DNA from: Acidobacteriota bacterium
GTDB taxonomy: Bacteria > Acidobacteriota > Terriglobia > Terriglobales > Acidobacteriaceae
Length of the DNA: 28,214 nt
Reading direction: 5' to 3'
Assembly: GCA_021799405.1 (NCBI GenBank)
Contig: JAJZAL010000041.1
Location: 1-28,214 of the forward strand
Part shown: positions 5,422 through 27,442 of the stretch, piece after piece
Numbering within the stretch: position 1 is the stretch's first letter
How the letters are laid out: each line of letters starts with the position of its first letter
Made by a program: the position numbers and the translations under genes
Notes under the pieces: generated by a model
Seen by the model: only the letters and a program-made list of their open reading frames with translations
Told to the model about the DNA's origin: nothing
Databases searched by the model: none

Positions 5422-5919
5422 TTATCGCAGTCCGTCACAGACGATGGTGACCGCGAAGCTGGCGCCGTCGAACCGGTAACGATGCCGCAACTGAAACTCG
5501 GGCGCCTGCACATGCAGCCGGTAGTCGCTGCCGGTAATCACAGCCGGGACCGACAATCCGCAGTGAGCCGCCAGCTCCGGCACCTTGCCCTTCCAGGCTC
5601 CGGCCAGCATGTTGCAGATTTCGCCGACACCGTCCTTCACGATGTCGTCGACTTCCGCGAATTCCACACCCGTCATGCGCCCGGCGATCGCAAGCGCGGC
5701 GCTGATCCCCATACTGAAGACGCAGGCTCCGCTCAGCGCTCCGCCAAAGCCCACTACCGCGGTCACCGCCTCCGGCTCCTGAGCGAGCGGTCCCGGCTCG
5801 CGGGTGCAGTGTACGCCCAGCATCAGATCGAAGACCTCTTCTATGGTTGCATCCAGATTCCGCGGATCGGCAATCAGGCCCACGGATTCACGCAAAGATA
5901 CCCGCATCCCATCCCCCAT
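5422..5919 (-). CDS. cheX: CheX/CheC-family chemotaxis phosphatase
   Basis: The 165-residue protein has the CheX/CheC fold pattern: GFGGALSGACVFSMGISAAL, then AGRMTGVEFAEVDDIVKDGV and GEICNMLAGAWKGKVPE. The catalytic E-x-x-N of this phosphatase family is intact at E100 and N103 (EICN). CheX and CheC remove phosphate from CheY-P. A cheY gene lies immediately upstream, 84 nt away, so CheY is the likely substrate, tuning signal lifetime at the motor. Two starts are possible: ATG 5919 (no clear Shine-Dalgarno) and ATG 5907 (GGGGGA very close). The conserved domain begins around residue 15, so function does not depend on the choice. Whether it is CheX-like (one active site) or half-CheC is uncertain; one site is visible. 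Confidence 0.8.
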   Translation of the reverse strand: MGDGMRVSLRESVGLIADPRNLDATIEEVFDLMLGVHCTREPGPLAQEPEAVTAVVGFGGALSGACVFSMGISAALAIAGRMTGVEFAEVDDIVKDGVGEICNMLAGAWKGKVPELAAHCGLSVPAVITGSDYRLHVQAPEFQLRHRYRFDGASFAVTIVCDGLR

Positions 5920-6003: not shown

Positions 6004-6381
6004 TCACGCGAGCAACGGCAGCACCCGCTCCTTCACCTGCTCGGCCGTAAAGGGCTTGCGGATATATCCACGCGCCCCGGCCAGGATCGCCTGCTTCACA
6101 TGTTCCTCGCTCGACTCAGTCGTAATCATCACCACGGGAACGCCGGGAGCCAGATTGCGGGCGCGGATCTGACGCAGAAACTCCAGCCCGTCCATCGCTG
6201 GCATATTGATGTCGGAGAGGATCAGATCCACCTGCTTCGCCTTGAGCAGTTCCAACGCCTCAGCACCATTGCCCGCTTCATGGACTGGCTGCAGGTCCAG
6301 CCCTGCCTGGCGCAGCGCACGCTCCACAATCTTGCGCATCACCGAAGAATCGTCCACGATCAGAGCTCGAATCTCGCTCAT
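6004..6381 (-). CDS. cheY: Chemotaxis response regulator CheY
   Basis: This is a stand-alone 125-residue receiver domain. The acidic pocket is D10-D11 (IVDDSS), the phosphoryl acceptor is D57 (ILSDINMPAMDG), the switch Thr is T87 or T88 (MITTES), and the conserved Lys is K109 (YIRKPF). No output domain follows, so it fits CheY, which binds FliM at the motor switch when phosphorylated. GGAG lies 7 nt upstream of the ATG. It lies between the MshEN-domain gene and the CheX-like phosphatase and close to fliM and fliN. No cheA, cheW or receptor gene is in the window, so its kinase must be encoded elsewhere. Confidence 0.93.
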   Translation of the reverse strand: MSEIRALIVDDSSVMRKIVERALRQAGLDLQPVHEAGNGAEALELLKAKQVDLILSDINMPAMDGLEFLRQIRARNLAPGVPVVMITTESSEEHVKQAILAGARGYIRKPFTAEQVKERVLPLLA

Positions 6382-6450: not shown

Positions 6451-7401
6451 TCAGAACGATCCGATCGAACCGATCAGATCCCGAACGCCGTTCACTTCGG
6501 GCAGCGGCCCGATCTGCGGGCGCAGCCACATGCGGAGCCAGAGGCAGCCGTGGACACGGACCAGACGCGACTCGGCCGGCTTATTTTTTTCAAGCGCCCT
6601 CGAAAACGCCTGCGCCAGCGCCGCCTCTGAAACCGCCTCAATCAGTTCAGCCGGCGGAAAACCCGATTCCAGCATGCGCACGTGCGCTTCGCGAAAGTGC
6701 GCCTGCTGCACGATCCCGCTCTCGACCCGCAGCCCCGTCATTTGCTCCACGCCAAAGGCCAGCGCCGGGTCAAGGCCCTGCTCGAATCCCAGGTAAAGCA
6801 GTCTGCCCGCCGCAACGCGCAGCGGGAGCGCCCCAAATGCCTCGACAAACAGCCGCGGCATCGCAGTTGCGAGCCATTCAGGCGCGTGCTGTTCCAAAGG
6901 CAGCACCGGGCAACTCCATTGCAAAGCCAGCGCCCTGGTCACCACGGGCTCGCTGACCGCATGCTGGCGGACCAGCCACTCGCCCAGTCTGCCTTTTCCC
7001 GCCGCTTTCTGGGCCTCCAGAGCCCGGCGCAGCTGGCTCTGCGTGATCCAACCCTGTTCCAGCAGGATCAGGCCGATCGGAATGCGATGGCGATGCGCCG
7101 CGATCCGGCCCGTTCCACGTCCGGAGACCTCGCGATGCAGCGCCGCCTCCACCCTGGCTCGCGTGCACTCCGCCGAGCAGCTCCAGCCGCCCTCGAACAT
7201 CGGCGTCGAACGGCTTCGCCAAAGCTGCAGCCAGCCGGAGTTGCAGCCGGGATGAGCGCAGGTGGCAAAGAGCCTCGACGGCCTCCCCGGCGAAACAGCA
7301 CTGCGCCAGCCTGACGATTCCCCCAGCGACTCTTCGCTTGCAAGGCTCGCCACCGGAAGCCGTCCCTCCCGGGTACGCGGGCTTCGCTTCAGAATAGGCA
7401 T
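6451..7401 (-). CDS. Zinc-ribbon plus MshEN (GspE N-domain) protein, possible cyclic-di-GMP sensor
   Basis: This 316-residue protein has no standard flagellar name. Residues 48-79 contain four cysteines (C48, C53, C75, C79; CAHPGC then CSAEC), suggesting a zinc-binding site. Residues 108-161 contain two tandem 24-residue motifs, PIGLILLEQG...LRRALEAQ (108-131) and RLGEWLVRQH...VTRALALQ (138-161). They fit the MshEN consensus RLGxxLxxxG-x6-LxxxLxxQ, except that the first lacks the leading Arg and the second has His for Gly. MshEN is the cyclic-di-GMP-binding N-domain of some type II secretion and type IV pilus ATPases. No Walker motifs or ATPase domain follow. The ATG at 7401 lies within fliN (13-nt overlap) with GGAG 8 nt upstream, so it is co-translated with the switch protein. 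Ligand binding and motor function are inference. Confidence 0.7.
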   Translation of the reverse strand: MPILKRSPRTREGRLPVASLASEESLGESSGWRSAVSPGRPSRLFATCAHPGCNSGWLQLWRSRSTPMFEGGWSCSAECTRARVEAALHREVSGRGTGRIAAHRHRIPIGLILLEQGWITQSQLRRALEAQKAAGKGRLGEWLVRQHAVSEPVVTRALALQWSCPVLPLEQHAPEWLATAMPRLFVEAFGALPLRVAAGRLLYLGFEQGLDPALAFGVEQMTGLRVESGIVQQAHFREAHVRMLESGFPPAELIEAVSEAALAQAFSRALEKNKPAESRLVRVHGCLWLRMWLRPQIGPLPEVNGVRDLIGSIGSF

Positions 7402-8123
7402 CGTATGCTCTCCAGACGCTTTTTGGGTTCGGCCACCTCGCTCACGCGCAGGCCGAAGTTGCCGTTCACCAGCACCACCTCGCCGCGCGCCACAATCTTG
7501 TCGCCAATGATCAGATCCACCGGATCGGAGACGTGCCGGTCCAGTTGCACCACATCTCCCGGCCCCAGGTCGAGAATCTCCCCGAGCGGCATCTCGCGCG
7601 AGCCAAAGCGCAGTGATGCCTCCAACTCCACATCGAGCAGCAATTCCAGCCCCGGACTCAAGGCCCGTGGCGTCCGCTCCAGCTCGGACGCAAGGCTCGC
7701 ACCGGATTCGGCTGCTCGCGTTTCATCGCGGACCAGGATCGTCCACGAGCGATCGCCGGAGCTTAACTGAAACGCGCGCGAAACCTCGATGCGCCCGGAA
7801 ACTGCCTCGAACTTTTCCAGCCGACACTTCTTTCCTGCCGTGGCGAGAAGATCTCCGGCTGCGGCCTCGGACGTCTCACGCAACAGCTCGCCCCATCCGG
7901 CCTTCTGATCCACGCCTTCCCCCAGCAGCGGAGCCGACAGGATCGCGCCATCTAGAGAAACCGTAAACCACCCCTCCACATCCCCGGCCAGGAAGGCTGC
8001 AAAGCCAAACGAGTCCTCCCTCGGAGGCTCAGGCGGGGCCTCGGCGAACCCGGGCTCTCCAGACAGTGCCTGAGGGAATAATGCCGCGGCCGCTATCGTC
8101 CAAGATTCCAAATAACTCTTCAT
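7389..8123 (-). CDS. fliN: Flagellar switch protein FliN with CheC-like N-terminal extension
   Basis: The C-terminal region (about 160-231) is a SpoA domain typical of FliN: LLLDVELEASLRFGSREMPL, GEILDLGPGDVVQLDRHVSD, then PVDLIIGDKIVARGEVVLVN. FliN forms the lower C-ring and helps dock CheY-P. At 244 residues it is far longer than a minimal FliN (about 100-140). The extra region at 37-133 resembles the CheC/CheX fold (FLAGDVEGWFTVSLDG; WGELLRETSEAAAGD), as in FliY, but the Asn of the catalytic E-x-x-N is not seen (ETSEA). It may be an inactive binding domain. The ATG overlaps the fliM stop (ATGA) with GAGG 7 nt upstream. A second SpoA protein is encoded at 15572-15991. Confidence 0.85.
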   Translation of the reverse strand: MKSYLESWTIAAAALFPQALSGEPGFAEAPPEPPREDSFGFAAFLAGDVEGWFTVSLDGAILSAPLLGEGVDQKAGWGELLRETSEAAAGDLLATAGKKCRLEKFEAVSGRIEVSRAFQLSSGDRSWTILVRDETRAAESGASLASELERTPRALSPGLELLLDVELEASLRFGSREMPLGEILDLGPGDVVQLDRHVSDPVDLIIGDKIVARGEVVLVNGNFGLRVSEVAEPKKRLESIRCLF

Positions 8124-9085
8124 CTCTCCACCTCAACCAATGTGCGCTCCACGTGAGCTCCGCGATACGCGCCAAGCCGGATCGCCTGCGCGCTGGCGAG
8201 TACCTGGCCGCCCACGCGCAACACCGGATCGGTGCTGGCCGGCAGGCCAAGGTCAAGAACGCTTCCGGGCTCCAGAGTTTCAAGAGCGCCGGCCACCAGC
8301 CGCACCGCCGGCAGTTGCAGCGAGCCGCCGAAGCGGATCCGCCGCGCCACCGCCTCGACCCGCGCGCGCGCCTCGCCGGTGTGACGCCGCCTGCGCCCCC
8401 AATCCGAGGTCAGCCTGCGCAGGATGGTGTTGGCCACCACTGCGGGAAAGGCCAGGTTGAGTAACCCTGAACTGTGCGGCATGCGGATTTCAAAACTCAG
8501 GCAAAGCGTCTTTTCCGCCACCGAGATCACCCGCGCCACCTGGGTCTGCATCTGGCGCCGTTCGAAGTTGAAGCTCAGGCCCACCGGCTGCCAGGCCGCC
8601 GTCAGCTCGCGGCAGATGATCTCCACCACGCTCCCCAGGATTGATTCCTCGATGTCGGTCAGCTCGCGCAACGGCCCATCCCTGCCCTCGCCGCCCAGCA
8701 GCAGGTCGATGATGGGCGGCGCCAGCCCCAGGTCCAGTTGCAGCACCGAAAGCGCTCCCAATGGCTCCAGCCGCACCGACGCCACATAGCTGATCTCGGG
8801 AATGCGCAGCAGAAAATCATTGAAGAGGATCTGCTCGGCCGAAACCAGATTGACCTGAAAGCGCGTGCGCAGCCACGCGGCCAGATTGTGCGTGAGATTG
8901 CGCGCGAACAGGTCATTGAGCAGGCTGATCGCGCGCAGCTGATCATTCGAAATCTGCCCGGCCGAGGAAAAACTGTAAGGCACGACCCGGGCCCGCACAT
9001 CCGCGGCCGCCGCGGCCGAAGTCGAACTCCGCGCCGCCTCAAAGAGCGCGTCGATTTCATCCTGCTTCAGTGTCTTTTCCGCCAA
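8120..9085 (-). CDS. fliM: Flagellar motor switch protein FliM
   Basis: FliM is the middle C-ring protein that binds CheY-P and sets rotation direction. The N-terminus carries the family peptide LKQDEIDALFEA (usually LSQDEIDALL). The CheC-like middle domain follows (FARNLTHNLAAWLRTRFQVN, then LRIPEISYVASVRLEPLGAL and LLLGGEGRDGPLRELTDIEE), and a C-terminal SpoA domain ends the protein. The open frame extends to a GTG at 9115, but I chose TTG at 9085: GGGAGG lies about 8 nt upstream and it places the DEIDALF peptide at the normal distance from the start. This gives 321 residues. The gene lies between fliA and fliN and overlaps fliN by 4 nt. Confidence 0.93.
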   Translation of the reverse strand: MAEKTLKQDEIDALFEAARSSTSAAAAADVRARVVPYSFSSAGQISNDQLRAISLLNDLFARNLTHNLAAWLRTRFQVNLVSAEQILFNDFLLRIPEISYVASVRLEPLGALSVLQLDLGLAPPIIDLLLGGEGRDGPLRELTDIEESILGSVVEIICRELTAAWQPVGLSFNFERRQMQTQVARVISVAEKTLCLSFEIRMPHSSGLLNLAFPAVVANTILRRLTSDWGRRRRHTGEARARVEAVARRIRFGGSLQLPAVRLVAGALETLEPGSVLDLGLPASTDPVLRVGGQVLASAQAIRLGAYRGAHVERTLVEVER

Positions 9086-9238
9086 TTCCGTCCCTCCCAC
9101 CGTTTTGCCTCGCACGGATTCGCCTGGTCATCAGCTTTTGCCGGCTTCGCTCCGCCATGCCGCGCTCCGGGTGCCGGGAGACCGGAGAATCAAGCAGCCA
9201 CTTTACTGGCCCCTTTACGCCTCGCCAGCCTGCCCGAG

Positions 9239-17935: not shown

Positions 17936-18358
17936 GTGTTCCTGCTCGACACCAACGTGGTTTCGGAATTACGAAAAGCCAAGCCCCACGGCGCCGTCCT
18001 CGCCTGGTTTGATTCTGTTTCCGCCCGCGATATTTCCATTCCTGCCGTCGTGATCGGAGAGATTCAGGAAGGCGCCGAAATCACACGGAAACAGAACCCG
18101 TCAAAGGCGGTGGAAATCGAAGCCTGGCTGGAAAAGGTAATGGCCACCTTTGCTGTTGTGCCGATGGACGGAATGACGTTTCGAGAGTGGGCGAGGCTGA
18201 TGGCGGGCAAATCCGACGATTTGAGTGGCGACGCCATGATTGCCGCCACGGCTCGAGTGCGGCGCCTCATCGTGGCGACTCGCAATGTTAGAGACTTCAA
18301 AAGCTTTGGTGTAAATATCTTGAATCCTTTCGTTTCCACCAGACGGGAGCAGCGTTGA
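17936..18358 (+). CDS. vapC: VapC/FitB-type PIN-domain ribonuclease toxin
   Basis: This 140-residue PIN-domain protein has the acidic active site of VapC RNases: D5 (FLLDTNVVSELRK), E42 (VVIGEIQEG), D99 (LSGDAMIAATA), with N117 and D120 in ATRNVRDF. VapC toxins cut specific RNAs, typically tRNA or the 23S sarcin-ricin loop, when the antitoxin is degraded. The FLLDTNVVSE start and TRNVRDF end fit the FitB-like subgroup. The start is GTG, 5 nt after the antitoxin stop, with GGAGG about 10 nt upstream. Its stop TGA overlaps the TTG start of pdxT, so toxin and pdxT translation are linked. All catalytic residues are intact, so it is likely active. Confidence 0.92.
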   Translation: MFLLDTNVVSELRKAKPHGAVLAWFDSVSARDISIPAVVIGEIQEGAEITRKQNPSKAVEIEAWLEKVMATFAVVPMDGMTFREWARLMAGKSDDLSGDAMIAATARVRRLIVATRNVRDFKSFGVNILNPFVSTRREQR

Positions 18359-19083: not shown

Positions 19084-19848
19084 ATGCCTTCCATCTTTTC
19101 TGCCATCCCCGCGGAGATAGAACGGAAAGCGCCTGGTACCGGCGGCAAGCCGCCTGTTGACCGGCGCCCGACCGGTGGTGGTGGAGGCGGGGGCGACGAC
19201 AACTGGAAAAATCAGCCCCGTGGCCCGCGGGAAAATCTCTACCGTGTACGCACCTTTGTCCTTTGCGCCCTGGCAGGCGACATGATGTTCTTTGTGGCGC
19301 TGGTCGTCATGTTCTACGCACGCCAGGTCGATACGCACATGGACCCTCGCACTCTGCGCCAGATTGGTGACTGGCACCCGATCCTGCTGCCGCCCATCCT
19401 CTACTTGAACACCGCCATTCTTCTGCTCAGCACTCTAACCATGGAATTTGCCCGCCAGAGCATCTTCCACGAGATCGACGTGCTGGAGGAGTGGCTGGGA
19501 CTGGGACGCCCGGCCCTGCGCCGCGCACGGCCCTGGCTGGCCGCGACCCTGGCGTTGGGGCTTCTCTTTCTCGCGGGACAGGGACTCGCATGGAAACAGT
19601 TAACCGAACAGGGGTTTGCATTTGACCGCTGGGCTACCCCGGCCAGCTACTTCTTTTATGTCATCACCGGTTTGCACGCGGCACATCTGCTTTTCGGCGT
19701 GTTGGCGCTCCTGGTGTGCCTGGTTGCTCTCGGCTTGCTCAAGCAGGTTGGGCAACGACAGATCGCGGTTGACTCAACGGCCTGGTTCTGGCACTGCATG
19801 AGCCTGGCATGGCTGGTGCTGTTTGCCGTGCTGATCTACGGGCAGTAG
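19084..19848 (+). CDS. Heme-copper oxidase subunit III with glycine-rich N-terminal tail
   Basis: Subunit III of cytochrome c or quinol oxidase supports stability and proton uptake of the terminal oxidase. The 254-residue protein has five hydrophobic segments at about 56-78, 99-119, 150-169, 186-219 and 234-252, and the conserved motif FYVITGLHAAHLLFG (H198, H201). The first 50 residues are hydrophilic with seven consecutive glycines at 31-37, probably a flexible cytoplasmic tail. The five-helix form fits a CyoC or short CtaE type. No subunit I or II gene is nearby, so its partners are encoded elsewhere. AAAAGGG precedes the ATG. A weak CATAAT at 19024-19029 is the only promoter hint. Confidence 0.85.
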   Translation: MPSIFSAIPAEIERKAPGTGGKPPVDRRPTGGGGGGGDDNWKNQPRGPRENLYRVRTFVLCALAGDMMFFVALVVMFYARQVDTHMDPRTLRQIGDWHPILLPPILYLNTAILLLSTLTMEFARQSIFHEIDVLEEWLGLGRPALRRARPWLAATLALGLLFLAGQGLAWKQLTEQGFAFDRWATPASYFFYVITGLHAAHLLFGVLALLVCLVALGLLKQVGQRQIAVDSTAWFWHCMSLAWLVLFAVLIYGQ

Positions 19849-19943
19849 CAGGCAGTAGCGCATCCTATCGCAAATCCAAAATACTCATCTCTCGGAGGGG
19901 GGTGACCTTCGCGCTCGTGGTGATCCAGGACGCTCGTCCGGAA

Positions 19944-20258
19944 TCATGAAGCGGTTCGAAGTCCCAGCAGTGAACGGCAGCGCTCGCTGAAGGAGATGAC
20001 CTCGGGGCAGGCGTAATAGACTTCCCGATTGATCGCCATGAGCAATTGAATGGCCTGCAACCGCCCGTCGTCCAGCGAGAGCGGTCCGCCCTCATGCACA
20101 AGTTCATCCGTCAGGTATTCAATGGCGTGGCCAAGAACTTCAAGTGCGCACCCGGCCTCGGGAGTGATGCGCCTGCGCCGGTTTGAGCGTGCGGGCATCT
20201 CGCCTGCCGTCAAAAGCGGCGCCGCGATCGGGATTTCTGTTGAAGTCAATGTCGCCAT
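19944..20258 (-). CDS. Small protein of unknown function
   Basis: I do not recognise this 104-residue protein. It has a variable N-terminus with a basic patch (RSNRRRRITPEAG at about 25-37) and then a mostly helical, acidic core: CALEVLGHAIEYLTDELVHE, DDGRLQAIQLLMAINREVYY, ACPEVISFSERC. No membrane segment, signal peptide or catalytic motif is visible. The reading frame has good codon character, unlike its overlapping frames. AGG lies about 9 nt before the ATG, a weak ribosome site. It is convergent with the oxidase gene (95-nt gap) and divergent from nuo, and the CRP-type site at 20369-20384 lies about 110 nt upstream of it, so it could be a target of that site. Confidence 0.6.
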   Translation of the reverse strand: MATLTSTEIPIAAPLLTAGEMPARSNRRRRITPEAGCALEVLGHAIEYLTDELVHEGGPLSLDDGRLQAIQLLMAINREVYYACPEVISFSERCRSLLGLRTAS

Positions 20259-20368
20259 TTTCTTTTGCCTGAACTACTTTTCGGCGTTTTTCAACTAATC
20301 TTCAGATAACGAAGGTACTCTCTCTTTCGGGTGATGCGGGCAGTATCTCGTTCCAAAACGGGAACCGA

Positions 20369-20384
20369 TGTGACGGCGATCACA
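20369..20384. promoter_or_regulatory. Perfect CRP/FNR-family binding site
   Basis: TGTGACGGCGATCACA is an exact TGTGA-N6-TCACA palindrome, the consensus for CRP-type regulators. It lies about 110 nt upstream of the minus-strand small gene and about 310 nt upstream of the predicted nuo promoter. It is therefore better placed for the small gene, or for looping or an unseen promoter. The regulator itself is not in the window. Confidence 0.65.
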
Positions 20385-20679
20385 CCTGATGCTCCCTGTT
20401 CACATATTGGTATCGCTGCCCCGCACCATGACGTGCGTCCTGCACAGGCGACGGCGCCAGACAAAGCCGAATCGCGAAGAACAGGACCCTGTGGACGGCC
20501 AGGAGAATCATCCATTAACGCCGCGGCGCCCGAGTCTGTCTCAAGGCCCGGCGAGAGCGCATCGGCCGGATGTGCAATCCTTTACAGGAGTCTCCATCGC
20601 GGTGCGCCGGACCACCTCGTCTGGCGCTCGAATTGGGGTGGGCAGGCAACCTCTCGATGCTGGCTTGCACCTCACAACC

Positions 20680-20708
20680 TTGACGGGACGCGGCTGAAAA
20701 CCTAATCT
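20680..20708 (+). promoter_or_regulatory. Sigma-70-type promoter of the nuo operon
   Basis: TTGACG (20680-20685), a 17-nt spacer and TAATCT (20703-20708) give a good housekeeping promoter with optimal spacing. Transcription would start near 20715, leaving about a 50-nt leader before the TTG start of nuoA. It is the best match in the 508-nt upstream region. Confidence 0.6.
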
Positions 20709-20766
20709 CAAACCAGCAACCTTTTTCATCGGAGACGCTTGTTGAGCCGGTGGACCGGGAGCCATC

Positions 20767-21195
20767 TTGAGAGACCTATCTGGGCTGGGCGACATGATTC
20801 CTTATGATTGGCAGTATCTTCCCCTCCTGATGCAAATCCTTGCCGCATTTTTGCTTGGGGTAGGGATGATTACGGCTTCATGGTTCATTGGCCGGCATCG
20901 CAACAGCAAGACCAAACTGGCACCCTACGAGTGCGGCATCGAGGCGGTGGGCGATGCCCGCGGGCGCTTCAGCGTGCGCTTTTATCTGGTGGCCGTGCTG
21001 TTCATCCTGTTCGACGTGGAAGCGGTCTTCATGATGCCCTGGGCGGTGATCTACCGCAAGCTGCCCCAGATCACCGGCTCACGCCTCTTTGGCTTCTGGG
21101 AGATGCTTGTCTACCTGGGCTTCGTGGCGGTTGGCCTCTACTACATTGTGCGCAAAGGCATCCTGAACTGGAGTCAGGACAAGGCGGACCTCTGA
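20767..21195 (+). CDS. nuoA: NADH-quinone oxidoreductase subunit A
   Basis: NuoA is a small membrane subunit near the quinone-site loop of complex I. The protein has three hydrophobic segments (about 18-41, 71-91, 108-127) and the conserved LAPYECGIEAVGDARGRFSV and RFYLVAVLFILFDVEAVFMM PW blocks with their acidic residues. I chose TTG at 20767, giving 142 residues, because GGGAG lies 5 nt upstream. ATG at 20794 is possible but has a weaker site. The next gene, 2 nt downstream, is nuoC rather than nuoB, which is unusual because nuoB normally sits between them. Confidence 0.95.
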   Translation: MRDLSGLGDMIPYDWQYLPLLMQILAAFLLGVGMITASWFIGRHRNSKTKLAPYECGIEAVGDARGRFSVRFYLVAVLFILFDVEAVFMMPWAVIYRKLPQITGSRLFGFWEMLVYLGFVAVGLYYIVRKGILNWSQDKADL

Positions 21196-21197
21196 AC

Positions 21198-21704
21198 ATG
21201 GACGACGCATTTAAAAACACATTGTCCGGCAAGGCGGCTGTTCTCGAAGGGCTACCGGATCATCCCGCCGTGAAAGCCATCCTGGCATGGAATCCCGAAG
21301 CCCTCACTGACGCCAAGTTTGACCGGAACGAACTCACGCTGACTATCGCGTCCGAGGAGATTCGCGCCGCGTGCGCCACGGTGCAGGCGGCTGGATATAA
21401 CTTCTTCGAAGATGTCACCGCGGTCGACTGGTTCCCTTCCTCGCCGCGCTTTCAGTTGAGCTATCACATCCTGTCGCACCGCTACAAAGAGCGCATCCGG
21501 CTGCGCGTTCTGCTGGAGGATACGGACCCTGCAGTGGAATCCATCACCACGGTCTGGCCCGGCGCCAACTACTACGAGCGCGAAGTCTTCGATCTCTTCG
21601 GCATCCGCTTTGAAGGCCATCCCAACCTGCGCCGCATCATGATGCCCGAAGATTGGCCGGGACATCCCTTGCGCAAAGACTACCCGGTGGAGGGCTATCG
21701 CTAA
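21198..21704 (+). CDS. nuoC: NADH-quinone oxidoreductase subunit C
   Basis: NuoC is the 30-kDa hydrophilic subunit that packs against NuoD near the quinone site. The 168-residue protein carries the family signature at 128-163: EVFDLFGIRFEGHPNLRRIM followed by MPEDWPGHPLRKDYP. FFEDVTAVDW at 69-78 is also typical. The open frame runs upstream through nuoA in another phase, but the ATG at 21198, directly after the nuoA stop, begins the family-like sequence. The Shine-Dalgarno is weak, so translation probably depends on coupling to nuoA. It is not fused to nuoD, which follows with no gap. Confidence 0.95.
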   Translation: MDDAFKNTLSGKAAVLEGLPDHPAVKAILAWNPEALTDAKFDRNELTLTIASEEIRAACATVQAAGYNFFEDVTAVDWFPSSPRFQLSYHILSHRYKERIRLRVLLEDTDPAVESITTVWPGANYYEREVFDLFGIRFEGHPNLRRIMMPEDWPGHPLRKDYPVEGYR

Positions 21705-22925
21705 ATGACTGCCACTGTTGGCACGCCCATTCTGGAAGCCCCTGTAGCCGAAGGCGCCAGGGACCAGCACATGGTCCTCAACATGGGGCCACAGCATCCG
21801 TCTACGCATGGCGTATTGCGGCTGGTGCTGGAGATCGACGGCGAAATCGTGGTCCGTCTCTACCCCGAGATCGGTTATCTGCACACCGGCATCGAGAAGA
21901 CCTGCGAAGCCAAGTTCTACCAGCAGGTGGTTCCGCTCACCGACCGGGTTGACTACCTCGGCCCGATGGCCAACAACCTCTGCTATTGCCTGGCCGTCGA
22001 AAAGCTTCTGGAGCTTGAGATTCCCGAAAAGGCCCAGTGGCTCCGCGTGCTGCTTGCCGAGCTGACCCGTCTGAATTCACACCTTATCTGGCTGGGCACG
22101 CACGCGATGGATATAGGCGCGCTGACGGTCTTTCTCTACACCTTCCGCGAGCGCGAAGATATCCTCAGGATCTTCGAGATGGTTTCAGGCCAGCGGATGA
22201 TGACCAGCTACATCCGCGTCGGCGGGCTTGCAATGGAGCCGCCGCTGGACTTCTTCGATCGTGTGCGCGCTTTCATTCAGACATTTCCGGAGAAGATTGA
22301 CGAGTACTCAAACCTGCTGACCGGAAATCCGATCTTCGTCAACCGCCTGAAGGGCGTGGGTTATTTGTCAGCCGAGGATGCGGTTGCGCTCGGCGTTACC
22401 GGGCCGGTCATGCGGGCCTCGGGCATCGACTTCGACGTCCGGCGCGATATGCCCTACTCCGGCTACGAGAAGTTTAAGTTCCACGTCCCCACGTCGACGG
22501 ATGGAGACGTGTGGGCGCGCTATCTGTGCCGGCTGACGGAGATGCGCGAGAGCACGAAGATCATCCAGCAGGCGCTCGACGGCATGCCCGAAGGACCGAT
22601 CAAGGCTGACGCGCCCAAGATTGTGCTGCCGGATCGCGAGAAGATGAAGACGCAGATGGAGGCGCTGATCCATCACTTCAAGATTGTCACCGAGGGCTTT
22701 ACGGTACCTGCCGGAGAGGTTTATCAGGCGATCGAGTCAGGACACGGGCTGATGGGCTACTACGTGGTCTCCGATGGCACGGCCAAGCCCTACCGGGTTC
22801 ACATGCGCTATCCGTCGTTCGCCACGCTGCAGGCGCTGGAGACCATGTGCAAGGGCCGCATGCTGGCCGACGTGGTGGCAGTCGTGGGCTCGATCGATAT
22901 CGTGCTGGGGGAGATTGATCGCTAG
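21705..22925 (+). CDS. nuoD: NADH-quinone oxidoreductase subunit D
   Basis: NuoD is the 49-kDa subunit that forms most of the quinone-reduction pocket with NuoB. The 406-residue protein has NMGPQHPSTHGVLRLVLEID at about 27-46, including the His pair (H31, H35) of the quinone site loop, PEIGYLHTGIEKTCE, LNSHLIWLGTHAMDIGALTV, and a C-terminus DVVAVVGSIDIVLGEIDR. The ATG immediately follows the nuoC stop, with GGAGG about 11 nt upstream in the nuoC end. Its stop overlaps by one base the GTG of a small unknown gene. Confidence 0.97.
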   Translation: MTATVGTPILEAPVAEGARDQHMVLNMGPQHPSTHGVLRLVLEIDGEIVVRLYPEIGYLHTGIEKTCEAKFYQQVVPLTDRVDYLGPMANNLCYCLAVEKLLELEIPEKAQWLRVLLAELTRLNSHLIWLGTHAMDIGALTVFLYTFREREDILRIFEMVSGQRMMTSYIRVGGLAMEPPLDFFDRVRAFIQTFPEKIDEYSNLLTGNPIFVNRLKGVGYLSAEDAVALGVTGPVMRASGIDFDVRRDMPYSGYEKFKFHVPTSTDGDVWARYLCRLTEMRESTKIIQQALDGMPEGPIKADAPKIVLPDREKMKTQMEALIHHFKIVTEGFTVPAGEVYQAIESGHGLMGYYVVSDGTAKPYRVHMRYPSFATLQALETMCKGRMLADVVAVVGSIDIVLGEIDR

Positions 22926-23236
22926 TGCCCTCGGCGACTCAGTTATACGGAGAGCTTTGGACGTCCCTCACTTCCCTCCTCCGCAGCTACACCGCGGTGC
23001 ACGGGTTGGCCGACAACCGACAGGCGGCCATCGAGGCGGATGAAAATCGGATTACTGTGCGGCGCGGCAGCGCCAGGTTGGATTTGGAACGGCAGGGCGC
23101 AACGGTGCGCTGGACACGCGAGGACGGCCGGAATGGACTACTGGAGTTGACTGAAACCGGAAGATTGCGATCGGGTGAGGGCGAGGAAGAGATGGATTTA
23201 GCAGCGGAAGCGTGGGCACGGGAGTTAATGCAATGA
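22925..23236 (+). CDS. Unknown 103-residue protein embedded between nuoD and nuoE
   Basis: I do not recognise this protein. It begins with a helical, tyrosine/leucine-containing segment (TQLYGELWTSLTSLLRSYTA), followed by a charged, beta-prone middle (NRITVRRGSARLDLERQ; ATVRWTREDGRNGLLELTET), and ends in an acidic helix (EGEEEMDLAAEAWARELMQ). No cysteine, membrane segment or catalytic motif is visible. Start is GTG at 22925, overlapping the last base of the nuoD stop, and the stop TGA overlaps the ATG of nuoE (ATGA). Such double coupling implies it is a real gene made with complex I proteins. It might be an accessory or assembly factor; that is inference. Confidence 0.72.
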   Translation: MPSATQLYGELWTSLTSLLRSYTAVHGLADNRQAAIEADENRITVRRGSARLDLERQGATVRWTREDGRNGLLELTETGRLRSGEGEEEMDLAAEAWARELMQ

Positions 23237-23790
23237 GTTCTGAAACCATGTCGATCTTTTCGCCCAGATTGGCGGCCCGCTTTGACGCGCTGGTCGCGAA
23301 ATATCCGGTGAAGCGCTCCGCGCTGGTTCCCATGCTGCTCTATGCGCAGGATGAGATCGGTTACCTCTCCGACGCGGTCATCGCCGAAGTAGCCGAGCGC
23401 ATCGGCATCACGGAGCTGGATGTGCGCAACGTAGCCACCTACTACTCGATGCTCCGCTTCAAACCGGCGGGCAAATACAACATTCAGGTCTGCACCAATA
23501 TCAGTTGCATGCTGCGGGGCGGCTACGACATCCTGGACCGCTTCCAGAAGGAATTGGGCGTCGGCCACAAAGGCATCACCTCCGACGGCGTTTTTTCGCT
23601 CGAAGAAGTGGAATGCATCGGGGCCTGCTGCTGGGCGCCGGCCATTCAGGTGAACTACGACTTTCACGACGAGCTGAAACCTGAACTCGTCCCCGGCATC
23701 CTCGAAGGCTATCGCGCGAAGGCCGGGTTCCCCGGCGACGGGTCTACGTCGCTGGGGCGAAAGGCAGAAGGGAAGGCTCCTCATGCCTAG
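23233..23790 (+). CDS. nuoE: NADH-quinone oxidoreductase subunit E
   Basis: NuoE is the 24-kDa thioredoxin-fold subunit holding the N1a [2Fe-2S] cluster of the NADH-oxidising arm. The 185-residue protein has all four ligands: C87 and C92 (VCTNISCMLRGG), C128 and C132 (VECIGACCWAP). The N-terminal helical part with YAQDEIGYLSDAVIAEVAER is typical. The frame opens at a GTG at 23212, but ATG at 23233 with GGAG 8 nt upstream overlaps the stop of the small upstream gene and is preferred. It overlaps nuoF by 8 nt. Confidence 0.97.
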   Translation: MSSETMSIFSPRLAARFDALVAKYPVKRSALVPMLLYAQDEIGYLSDAVIAEVAERIGITELDVRNVATYYSMLRFKPAGKYNIQVCTNISCMLRGGYDILDRFQKELGVGHKGITSDGVFSLEEVECIGACCWAPAIQVNYDFHDELKPELVPGILEGYRAKAGFPGDGSTSLGRKAEGKAPHA

Positions 23791-25093
23791 ACTTGTCTCT
23801 CATCCCGATGAAGTAAAGATCGTCACCCGCCGCTTCGGCCAGGGTGCGGCAAATATCGACCGCTATCTTGAGCTGGGCGGCTACCAGTCCGCGAAGAAGT
23901 GCCTGGAACAGGGCCCGGACTGGATCATCAACGAGATGAAGGCCAGCAACCTGCGCGGCCGCGGCGGCGCGGGCTTCGCCACCGGCATGAAGTGGTCCTT
24001 TGTGCCGAAGCAATCACCCAAGCCGAAATACGTGCTGGTCAACGGCGACGAGAGCGAGCCCGGCACCTGCAAGGATCACCTCATCTTCCTGCATGACCCG
24101 CACTCGGTCATCGAAGGCACGATTATTGCGGGGTTGGCGATCGGCTCCAAGCTGGGCTTCATTTACCTGCGCGGCGAGTACCGGTATCTGCTGGAAATTG
24201 TGGAGAAGGCCGTCGCCGATGCCTATGCTCGCGGCTTTCTCGGCAAGAATATCTTCGGCTCGGAGACGGAGTTCCAGATCATCACGCAATCCGGCGCAGG
24301 CGCATACGAAGTGGGCGAGGAATCGGCTCTGATGGAGTCGCTCGAAGGCAAGCGCGGAGTGCCGCGCATCAAGCCTCCCTTCCCGGCGGTCGTTGGCCTC
24401 TATGGCGGCCCCACCATCATCAACAATGCGGAGACGATCGCAACCGTGCCGCATGTGATCGCCATGGGGGCGGAGGCCTACGCCGCCGTGGGCACGCCGC
24501 GCAACGGCGGCACGCGCCTGTTCGGCATCAGTGGCCATGTAGAGCGGCCGGGCGTCTACGAGCTGCCCATGGGCTACAACCTGAAGAAGATGATCTATGA
24601 CGTTGCCGGAGGCGTGCGCGGCGGGCGCAAGCTCAAGGCCGTGGTTCCCGGCGGTTCATCGACGCCGGTACTGCTGCCCGAAGAAATCGAAAACCTGGGC
24701 ATGGACTTCGACCAGGTGGGCAAGGCCGGTTCGATGCTCGGCTCAGGCGGAGTGGTCGTGATCGACGACCAGACCTGCATCGTCGAGTTCGCACTGCGGA
24801 CAATCAGCTTTTATCAGCATGAGAGCTGCGGCTGGTGCATTCCCTGCCGCGAAGGCACGGACTGGCTGAAGAAGACCTTCACCCGCTTCCACGCCGGTTT
24901 CGGCACAGCCAGCGATATCGACAACATTCAGCACATCGCGCAGAACATTCTGGGCCGCACCTTCTGCCCGCTGGGCGACGCGGCGGCGATGCCCACGCTG
25001 GGCTTTATCAAGAAGTTCCGCAAGGAATTTGAGGATCATTTGAACGGCAAGCCGTGCCCGTATGCCAGGCATGAAGAACTAGCGGCAGTGTAG
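23783..25093 (+). CDS. nuoF: NADH-quinone oxidoreductase subunit F
   Basis: NuoF is the 51-kDa subunit that binds NADH, FMN and the N3 [4Fe-4S] cluster. In the 436-residue protein the FMN/NADH loops are LRGRGGAGFATGMKW (57-71) and LVNGDESEPGTCKDH (85-99). The cluster ligands are C349, C352 and C355 (ESCGWCIPCREG) plus C395 (TFCPLGDA). A further conserved Gly-rich segment is GPTIINNAETIATVPH. The ATG lies within the end of nuoE (8-nt overlap) with AAGG about 6 nt upstream. Length and motifs are normal. Confidence 0.98.
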   Translation: MPRLVSHPDEVKIVTRRFGQGAANIDRYLELGGYQSAKKCLEQGPDWIINEMKASNLRGRGGAGFATGMKWSFVPKQSPKPKYVLVNGDESEPGTCKDHLIFLHDPHSVIEGTIIAGLAIGSKLGFIYLRGEYRYLLEIVEKAVADAYARGFLGKNIFGSETEFQIITQSGAGAYEVGEESALMESLEGKRGVPRIKPPFPAVVGLYGGPTIINNAETIATVPHVIAMGAEAYAAVGTPRNGGTRLFGISGHVERPGVYELPMGYNLKKMIYDVAGGVRGGRKLKAVVPGGSSTPVLLPEEIENLGMDFDQVGKAGSMLGSGGVVVIDDQTCIVEFALRTISFYQHESCGWCIPCREGTDWLKKTFTRFHAGFGTASDIDNIQHIAQNILGRTFCPLGDAAAMPTLGFIKKFRKEFEDHLNGKPCPYARHEELAAV

Positions 25094-25108
25094 GAGTGCT
25101 GGAGACCA

Positions 25109-27442
25109 ATGGCAGACGTAACTTTTACAGTCGATGGAAAGAAGCTGACAGCGCCCGCCGGCACGCTGCTGATTGATGCCTGCCGCAAGGCTGGTATCGA
25201 AATTCCGGCCTTTTGCTACTATCCGGGCCTCAGCCTGCAGGCGGCCTGCCGTATGTGCGTAGTGCGCCAGGAAAAAGTGCCCAAGCTGCAAACCGCCTGC
25301 ACCACGCAGGTTGCCGAGGGCCAGGTTTTCATCACCGAATCGCCCGAGATCGCGGAGGCCCGTAAAGGCACCATCGAATTGCTGCTGGGCAACCATCCGC
25401 TGGATTGCCCGGTTTGCGACGCCGGCGGCGAGTGCGAGCTCCAGGATATGAACTTCAAATACGGCGCTGGTGAAAGCCTGTATGTCGAGGCCAAGCAGCA
25501 CCGCGAGGAGCAGCAGTGGTCGCCTGCCGTCTTCTATGACCGGCCGCGCTGCATCCTCTGCTACCGCTGTACGCGCATGTGCGGCGAAGGCATGGATGTG
25601 TGGGCGCTGGGTGTGCAGAGCCGCGGCGTCCGGTCAGTCATTACGCCCAACGGCGGCGACCGGCTGGACTGTGAGCAGTGCGGCATGTGCATCGACGTTT
25701 GCCCTGTCGGGGCGCGTACCAGCGGCAGCTATCGCTACAAGACCCGTCCCTGGGAGATGAAGCATGTCTCCACCGTCTGCCCCCATTGCGCCGACGGTTG
25801 CAGGGTGACGCTGGGCGTGCGCCAGATCGATGGCGATGCCGTGATTATCCGCTCTGACAACCGCGACAAGGGCGGCATCAACGGCGACTTCCTCTGCGCC
25901 AAGGGACGTTTCGGTTTCGATTTTGTCGAGAGCCGGGAGCGGCTTTCCACGCCGATGGTGAGAAACGCGGCGGGCAAGCTGGAGCCGGCCACGTGGGCAC
26001 AGGCGCTCGCTGCCGCGGCGAGCAAGCTCAAGGAGATTCGCGAGACGCGAGGCGGCGCGTCGATCGGTGTGATCGGCTCGAACCGCACCACCAACGAAGA
26101 GAACTACCTGCTGCAAAAGTTCGCGCGCACCGTCCTCCACACCAACAACATCGATCACGCGCGCTCGACCGATTATGCGGCCTTTGCGCGCGCCCTCGCC
26201 GGGCATAAAGACAAAGCGGCCAGCCTGCGCGATATCGCAGCAGCCCCGGCCATCCTGCTGGTGGGCGGCAATCCGACCGAGGAGCATCCGCTGCTGGCCT
26301 GGATCCTGCGCACCAATGTGCGGCTCAACAAAGCCCGCCTCTACATCGCCAACTCGCAATCCATCAAGCTGGAGCGGCAGGCGAAGGCCGTGCAGGGGCT
26401 TCCGCCCAACGGCTACAAGGATCTGACCTCCATCCTCGACCGCAATGATTCCGATTTTGCCAAAGCGGTCATGGCTGAGGAAGCACTCGTCGTCATCTTC
26501 GGCGCGGATTTTCGTGGCCAGGGGGTCGAGGATCTCGTCGCCTGGGGCCTGAAGCGGGGTCCAAATCCCGATTCTGTTCGCTTCGCCATCGTGGGCGACC
26601 ACTCGAACTCCCGCGGCGCGGCCGACATGGGACTCTTCCCGGATCTGCTGCCCGGCTATGTGCCCGTAACGGAGCCCGGCGCCTTCGCCGAGTATCCGGG
26701 ATTACCCGCGGCGCCCGGCAAAACGCTGCCTGAGATGTTTGCGGCGGCCGGCAAGGGCGATCTGGGCGCGCTGCTCGTCGTGGGCGCCAACCCGGTCGGC
26801 AAGCAGGGCATGGATGCTGCTGCTCTCAAGAACACATTTGTCGTGGTGCAGGATCTTTTTCTTACCGAAACCGCGGCTCTCGCCGATGTGGTGTTTCCCG
26901 CCGCCAGTCTCTACGAAAAGGCGGGTACGGTCACCAGCACCTACGGCGATCTGCAACTGGTGAAGAAAGCGGCCGACCGCGCCGGCGTCAAACCAGACTT
27001 TGAAATTCTGGTGCGGCTGGCGGAAGAGATGGGCGCCGATGTAAAGGCTCTGGTGCCTTTCGGCAAGGGCGGAGTCAGTGCCGATCTGGGGCAGTCGCGC
27101 GGCGCGCAGGCGGGCGAAGCCGACCGCCATGCTGTGTGGCTCGCGGCCCAGGGACTTGAACCCCGGCTCAGTCCGCTTGATCCCCTGGCCGTACTGGACG
27201 AGATCGAGCGGCTGGTTCCCGGCTATACACTGGACCGGATCAATTTGTTGAGCGGCAATGATGTGCGCACAGAATTGGGTGCAGCGCAGGGCCGCTCCGC
27301 ATCAAGCTCGGACGGCGCGGGCCTTATCGTTCCCGCGCACGATAGCTTATTTACCTCCGCAACCCTGGGCCGCTACAGCTTCGCATTGAAGGACCTGGAA
27401 CGGCACCAGACGCAGGCAGTGACAGAATCCGCGGCGGATTAG
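25109..27442 (+). CDS. nuoG: NADH-quinone oxidoreductase subunit G
   Basis: NuoG is the 75-kDa iron-sulfur subunit of the complex I peripheral arm. The 777-residue protein carries, in order: a [2Fe-2S] cluster (C36, C47, C50, C64), the His-ligated N5 cluster (H96, C100, C103, C109), two ferredoxin-type [4Fe-4S] clusters (C148/C151/C154 with C198, and C188/C191/C194 with C158), and a molybdopterin-oxidoreductase-like domain from about 217. That domain keeps the extra N7 cluster ligands C224, C227, C231 and C263, which many complex I enzymes have lost. GGAG lies 4 nt before the ATG. The final 40 residues are polar and variable. Confidence 0.97.
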   Translation: MADVTFTVDGKKLTAPAGTLLIDACRKAGIEIPAFCYYPGLSLQAACRMCVVRQEKVPKLQTACTTQVAEGQVFITESPEIAEARKGTIELLLGNHPLDCPVCDAGGECELQDMNFKYGAGESLYVEAKQHREEQQWSPAVFYDRPRCILCYRCTRMCGEGMDVWALGVQSRGVRSVITPNGGDRLDCEQCGMCIDVCPVGARTSGSYRYKTRPWEMKHVSTVCPHCADGCRVTLGVRQIDGDAVIIRSDNRDKGGINGDFLCAKGRFGFDFVESRERLSTPMVRNAAGKLEPATWAQALAAAASKLKEIRETRGGASIGVIGSNRTTNEENYLLQKFARTVLHTNNIDHARSTDYAAFARALAGHKDKAASLRDIAAAPAILLVGGNPTEEHPLLAWILRTNVRLNKARLYIANSQSIKLERQAKAVQGLPPNGYKDLTSILDRNDSDFAKAVMAEEALVVIFGADFRGQGVEDLVAWGLKRGPNPDSVRFAIVGDHSNSRGAADMGLFPDLLPGYVPVTEPGAFAEYPGLPAAPGKTLPEMFAAAGKGDLGALLVVGANPVGKQGMDAAALKNTFVVVQDLFLTETAALADVVFPAASLYEKAGTVTSTYGDLQLVKKAADRAGVKPDFEILVRLAEEMGADVKALVPFGKGGVSADLGQSRGAQAGEADRHAVWLAAQGLEPRLSPLDPLAVLDEIERLVPGYTLDRINLLSGNDVRTELGAAQGRSASSSDGAGLIVPAHDSLFTSATLGRYSFALKDLERHQTQAVTESAAD

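Follow-up and report, generated by a model that had tools for sequence, protein, structure and literature searches.

What is a protein resembling the sensory front end of a type IV pilus motor doing among the switch genes of a flagellar cluster? The question is raised by a 28,214-nucleotide (nt) stretch of an Acidobacteriota genome (contig JAJZAL010000041.1, from Acidobacteriaceae; hereafter the window), in which a gene at 6451..7401 on the minus strand, called X here together with its protein, lies next to fliN. An earlier note on this DNA had read X as a possible cyclic di-GMP (c-di-GMP) input to motility through an MshEN protein. Our analysis supports this reading, the c-di-GMP part being predicted from sequence, and we are inclined to regard X as an accessory protein dedicated to the flagellum in Acidobacteriota, a partner of the C-ring that responds to c-di-GMP and is produced along with FliN. 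The X protein is organised as follows:

6451..7401, minus strand: gene X (316 amino acids), four-cysteine finger, MshEN (GSPII) domain and probable N2 remnant
7165..7260, minus strand: four-cysteine finger C-x4-C-x21-C-x3-C, residues 48-79, putative metal site
6919..7086, minus strand: conserved Arg106 followed by two c-di-GMP motifs of 24 residues, residues 106-161, from NF053729 and the sequence
6664..6918, minus strand: C-terminal subdomain of MshEN, residues 162-246
6454..6657, minus strand: what probably remains of a PilB/GspE N2 domain, residues 249-316, with no RecA ATPase after it

The presence of an MshEN domain in X goes beyond chance. The NCBIfam c-di-GMP motif model NF053729 covers both motifs (E 7.4e-14, 51.3 bits for a cut-off of 38), and sequence matches in the PDB are PilF, PilB and MshE. 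The profile check suggested in the earlier note thus gave significant matches with these two resources, and fell short with Pfam MshEN (PF05157), which scores the window protein at 13.9 bits, under its cut-off of 23.1; this cut-off is exceeded by eight out of ten relatives that lie outside the class of the window. The motifs lie at residues 108-131 and 138-161, as had been claimed. The "two substitutions" from the short consensus given there hold for each motif separately and make four in total (R to P and L to I in motif I, G to H and L to V in motif II), and the linker between the motifs has six residues versus five in MshE. Structural matches include the EpsE-EpsL and GspE-GspL complexes (2bh1, 4pht). 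No Walker A pattern was found in X, which stops after its N2-like part, in agreement with the previous statement that no ATPase domain follows MshEN. Pfam and NCBIfam detected no PilZ domain in X, and Pfam no receiver domain, which is present in the adjoining gene.

The C-terminus, on which the earlier note was silent, is probably a truncated remnant of PilB N2, on purely statistical grounds: a comparison with hhalign scored 25.7, against a maximum of 17.7 among 300 column shuffles (the signal was weaker in a first run), and the HMMER alignment of X extends into the N2 domain of PilF.

The genes and signals surrounding X are as follows:

8120..9115, minus strand: fliM (Pfam FliM, 123.3 bits)
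7389..8123, minus strand: fliN, encoding a C-ring protein, upstream neighbour of X (Pfam FliMN_C, 80.1 bits)
7408..7413, minus strand: GGAGAG, resembling a ribosome-binding site, inside fliN, chosen by eye
7389..7401, minus strand: 13-nt overlap between the end of fliN and the start of X, from the sequence
6004..6381, minus strand: cheY-like receiver gene, downstream neighbour of X (Pfam Response_reg, 111.8 bits)
5422..5919, minus strand: cheX-like phosphatase gene (Pfam CheX, 65.5 bits)

Both the overlap and the cheY-like gene had been described correctly, as judged by coordinates and Pfam; NCBIfam CheY is the top match of the latter, yet under its own cut-off. The 316 codons of X begin with ATG, six bases downstream of the GGAGAG. 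Among 44 loci of the window's family (L001-L020, L043-L064, L116 and L117, the start being the first ATG, GTG or TTG), the overlap with fliN is exactly 13 nt in 33, 22 nt in two and 4 nt in two; in the seven others the X frame is open further upstream and its start is ambiguous. Since the 13-nt overlap recurs in this way, X is probably translationally coupled with fliN. By eye, we also noticed in the window an open reading frame for a PIN-domain (VapC-like) protein fairly near the flagellar cluster (17936-18358, plus strand), and genes for a cytochrome oxidase subunit and NADH dehydrogenase (nuo) on that other strand (19084-27442, plus strand).

X and flagella largely occur together in the genus. 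Among 59 genomes, 44 encode X and 47 FlhA, with both present in 42 and neither in ten. Contigs end near X in the two genomes with X without FlhA (G001 and G050). As for FlhA without X, contigs end shortly past fliA in G008 and G028, flhA is matched as pieces alone in G014 and G052, and G036 carries a decayed cluster whose truncated flhA directly adjoins flgG, with no fliA, fliM, fliN, X, cheY, cheX or flgF between the two (L115). X directly follows fliN in 31/31 loci, some of which share a genome, and a CheY match lies downstream of X in 30; the remaining one, L013, shows none within its available stretch.

The survey was extended to 297 genomes of the phylum, counting as X the rows whose match spans the cysteine region and leaving out fragments, long ATPases and a row (G175) interrupted by four internal stops. 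Seven or eight candidates were scored per genome, so that X counts are lower bounds; three genomes (G108, G189 and G236) in which X was absent from the first survey listing were recovered in others. Full-length X is present in at least 40 genomes, 25 from the window's family and 15 from other families. As these 15 are labelled as the same phylum rather than the same class, X occurs in at least two classes; this extension of the family past the window's class is absent from the earlier note. FlhA was matched in 100 genomes at E <= 1e-30, a count that includes weak matches (34-39% identity) and short pieces. Among the matches listed, X was found in 39/100 genomes with FlhA versus 1/197 without it (Fisher 2.8e-20, uncorrected for kinship), the single exception being G001, whose flhA is lost off the contig end. 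Flagellar genes adjoin 39 of the 40 full-length copies listed (25/25 in the family, 14/15 elsewhere), so that X is rarer away from flagellar loci, the point on which the earlier note had proposed a linkage survey. Outside the family, fliN precedes the linked X by 121 to 2037 bp, except on one contig piece without fliN, where X is beside flgF.

A phylogeny of the MshEN domains from a selection of 38 X and from 17 PilB-like proteins groups the 37 flagellar X in one clade (support 92), with the protein of genome G293 as sister (support 69); these supports are moderate, and the tree gives grouping rather than direction, because PilB was the rooting group. It is very improbable that X is an ordinary fragment of a pilus or secretion ATPase, placed here by chance or decaying: X does share its domain with PilB and GspE, but it is found in three quarters of the genus genomes and outside the class, with both overlap and linkage conserved and a single clade.

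The four cysteines (residues 48, 53, 75 and 79), whose spacing is exactly that given in the earlier note, are invariant in 25/25 aligned sequences, in an alignment with a mean column identity of 32%; the first one is unaligned in 3/22 genomes from other genera of the family. The finger matches no known family by profile and is a predicted metal site only, which would hold zinc. Such near invariance would fit a protein that binds c-di-GMP and acts, instead of at the switch, on expression or assembly, for example by binding nucleic acids through the finger, and operon position does not prove a target. We regard this alternative as rather improbable: profile searches with X and its relatives gave no nucleic-acid-binding family above cut-off, and the adjoining fliN, with cheY or flgF downstream, suggests a target in the switch or basal body, although neither argument is decisive.

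Is the pocket of X fit for c-di-GMP? In MshE, the binding site consists of R9, L10, G11, L25, L29 and Q32 with their counterparts R38, L39, G40, L54, L58 and Q61; the ligand failed to stabilise the variants G11L and G40I, and changes at R9 and Q32 cost at most fivefold in binding, although the discussion of that paper nonetheless rates both residues as important (PMC5013675). In PilF, measurable binding by the first domain required restoration of both glutamines and the motif-II arginine (PMC12002112). The window protein retains this arginine and differs from the MshE pocket only by R9 to P, L10 to I and L54 to V. We then counted pocket residues with one row per locus: one from the window, 29 from the genus, 22 from the family's other genera, 14 from outside the class and eight from the second flagellum. 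G11, Q32, G40 and Q61 are retained in all 14 linked copies outside the class, where R or K occupies R9 in 11 and R38 in 12, and in 29/29 copies of the first flagellar system of the genus; in the other genera of the family, G11, G40 and Q61 are retained in 22/22 and Q32 in 20/22. The pocket is thus largely conserved, the copies of the second flagellum excepted, and we infer that the MshEN domain of X would bind c-di-GMP.

The second flagellum provides the main rival to this reading. Eight distant copies of X, with 26-30% identity, come from a second flagellar cluster, in which X closely follows the local fliN in 8/8; a ninth distant copy, a fragment in G015, was left out. Because these copies adjoin the second-cluster fliN, there are two divergent flagellar systems, each with its own X. 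The second cluster is seen in several genomes of the genus (L032-L039), with an FlhA 52-60% identical to that of the window where it is on the contig. Its X proteins keep the cysteines (8/8) and the position after fliN, yet Q32 and G40 are each lost in 7/8, and R occupies L58 in 7/8. The X of the first system is also present in five of the seven genomes with a pocket-depleted second copy (G009, G032, G038, G041 and G056). These copies suggest a further role independent of the pocket. X could then be a ligand-free scaffold that serves the structure or assembly of the C-ring or export gate, with MshEN as a protein-protein docking module, as in GspE N1-GspL, and with nucleotide binding secondary or lost. 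The EpsE-EpsL and GspE-GspL complexes among the structural matches and the proline at R9 also fit this possibility; the two glycines and two glutamines of the pocket, present in 43/43 linked outside-class and first-system genus copies amid such low mean identity, speak against it, and we consider it unlikely overall, although to be taken seriously.

Other observations weigh, like these pocketless copies, against a c-di-GMP-responsive flagellar protein. In an engineered PilF domain, reverting the motif-II arginine to serine abolished binding (PMC12002112). The motif-I arginine R9, which stacks on guanine in MshE, is a proline throughout the window's family: in the window protein, in 29 genus copies and in 22 from other genera, 52/52 in total. 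The residue aligned with MshE R7 is an arginine in all 52, and it is another residue in five of the six outside-class copies with R at R9. As this pattern is mostly reversed outside the class, the stacking role may, in the window's family, have shifted to an arginine two residues upstream. Two family copies (L063 and L064, from G224 and G351) have A at Q32 and R at L29, possibly a separate loss of ligand binding; with the second-flagellum copies, they indicate that X can persist without a canonical pocket. An X-like gene of G293 (L112:9246-10070), with the cysteine finger, a canonical pocket and R at both the R7 and R9 positions, lies away from flagellar genes. By eye, its neighbours are tatD, secDF and tgt. 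No X was found among the matches listed in 61/100 genomes with FlhA, and X is therefore dispensable for flagella in general. Of 40 loci fetched around flhA, 22 show no X, several of them being cut contigs. Where X is absent, an HDOD-like protein was seen by eye after fliN in two loci (L081:7787-8473 and L088:13243-14175).

Finally, c-di-GMP control could be carried by PilZ proteins instead. YcgR and related PilZ proteins are c-di-GMP flagellar brakes, and to our knowledge few lineages have a known c-di-GMP route to the motor, through PilZ brakes or Cle proteins. All 12 Acidobacteriaceae genomes searched contain GGDEF matches (6 to 20 each) and PilZ matches (1 to 6 each); the N-domains of YcgR-type proteins, PF07317 and PF12945, were found in 0/12, while in control genomes PF07317 was matched in Escherichia coli and PF12945 in Bacillus subtilis and Thermotoga maritima. 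The earlier note named PilZ-based brakes such as YcgR as the known ones; PilZ is not the sole type of c-di-GMP effector at the motor: the CheY-like Cle proteins of Caulobacter bind c-di-GMP and FliM (PMC5677366).

X would be nearest in its working to YcgR or Cle, as a member of neither family. It resembles PilZ brakes in its proposed job, input of c-di-GMP to the motor, with a different fold. Like Cle, it would be a non-PilZ effector at the switch, but Cle has a receiver fold and an arginine-rich tail (PMC5677366), whereas X is based on MshEN and encoded in a flagellar structural operon. Domain, fold and the two-motif layout of the pocket are shared with MshE, PilB and PilF (PMC5013675), in which MshEN is carried by ATPases; X lacks the ATPase and differs further by its cysteine finger, its flagellar locus and, in the window's family, the proline at R9. 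The order N1 then N2 is that of PilB and GspE; unlike in these proteins, N2 is truncated and the RecA motor absent. MshEN domains associated with CheX or CheA are named in PMC5013675, a similar link with chemotaxis; those are domain associations in other bacteria, whereas X is a separate gene beside cheY and cheX.

We propose that X is related to the N1/MshEN plus N2 regulatory half of an ATPase that drives type IV pili or type II secretion. Probably coupled to fliN translation, it would most likely dock on the FliM/FliN C-ring, or on CheY or CheX there; c-di-GMP in the MshEN pocket would alter this docking, and altered docking would bias or slow the motor, the docking site and the direction of the effect being predictions. 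More tentatively, the whole history may be that a pilus-ATPase relative lost its motor and gained the cysteine finger, becoming, in a large part of the Acidobacteriota, a c-di-GMP-gated switch subunit made with FliN, with a second copy that became pocketless and, in one family, an arginine that moved.

If X works in this way, an MshEN protein of its own, encoded with the C-ring, would link c-di-GMP directly to swimming by a route open to test, and part of a pilus motor would have been transferred to the flagellum. A natural pair, X with and without its pocket, exists in genomes with two flagella, and one motor of these organisms would respond to c-di-GMP and the other not. Many Acidobacteriota keep in their flagellar cluster a protein resembling the sensor front end of a pilus motor, without the motor, through which c-di-GMP may act directly on swimming.
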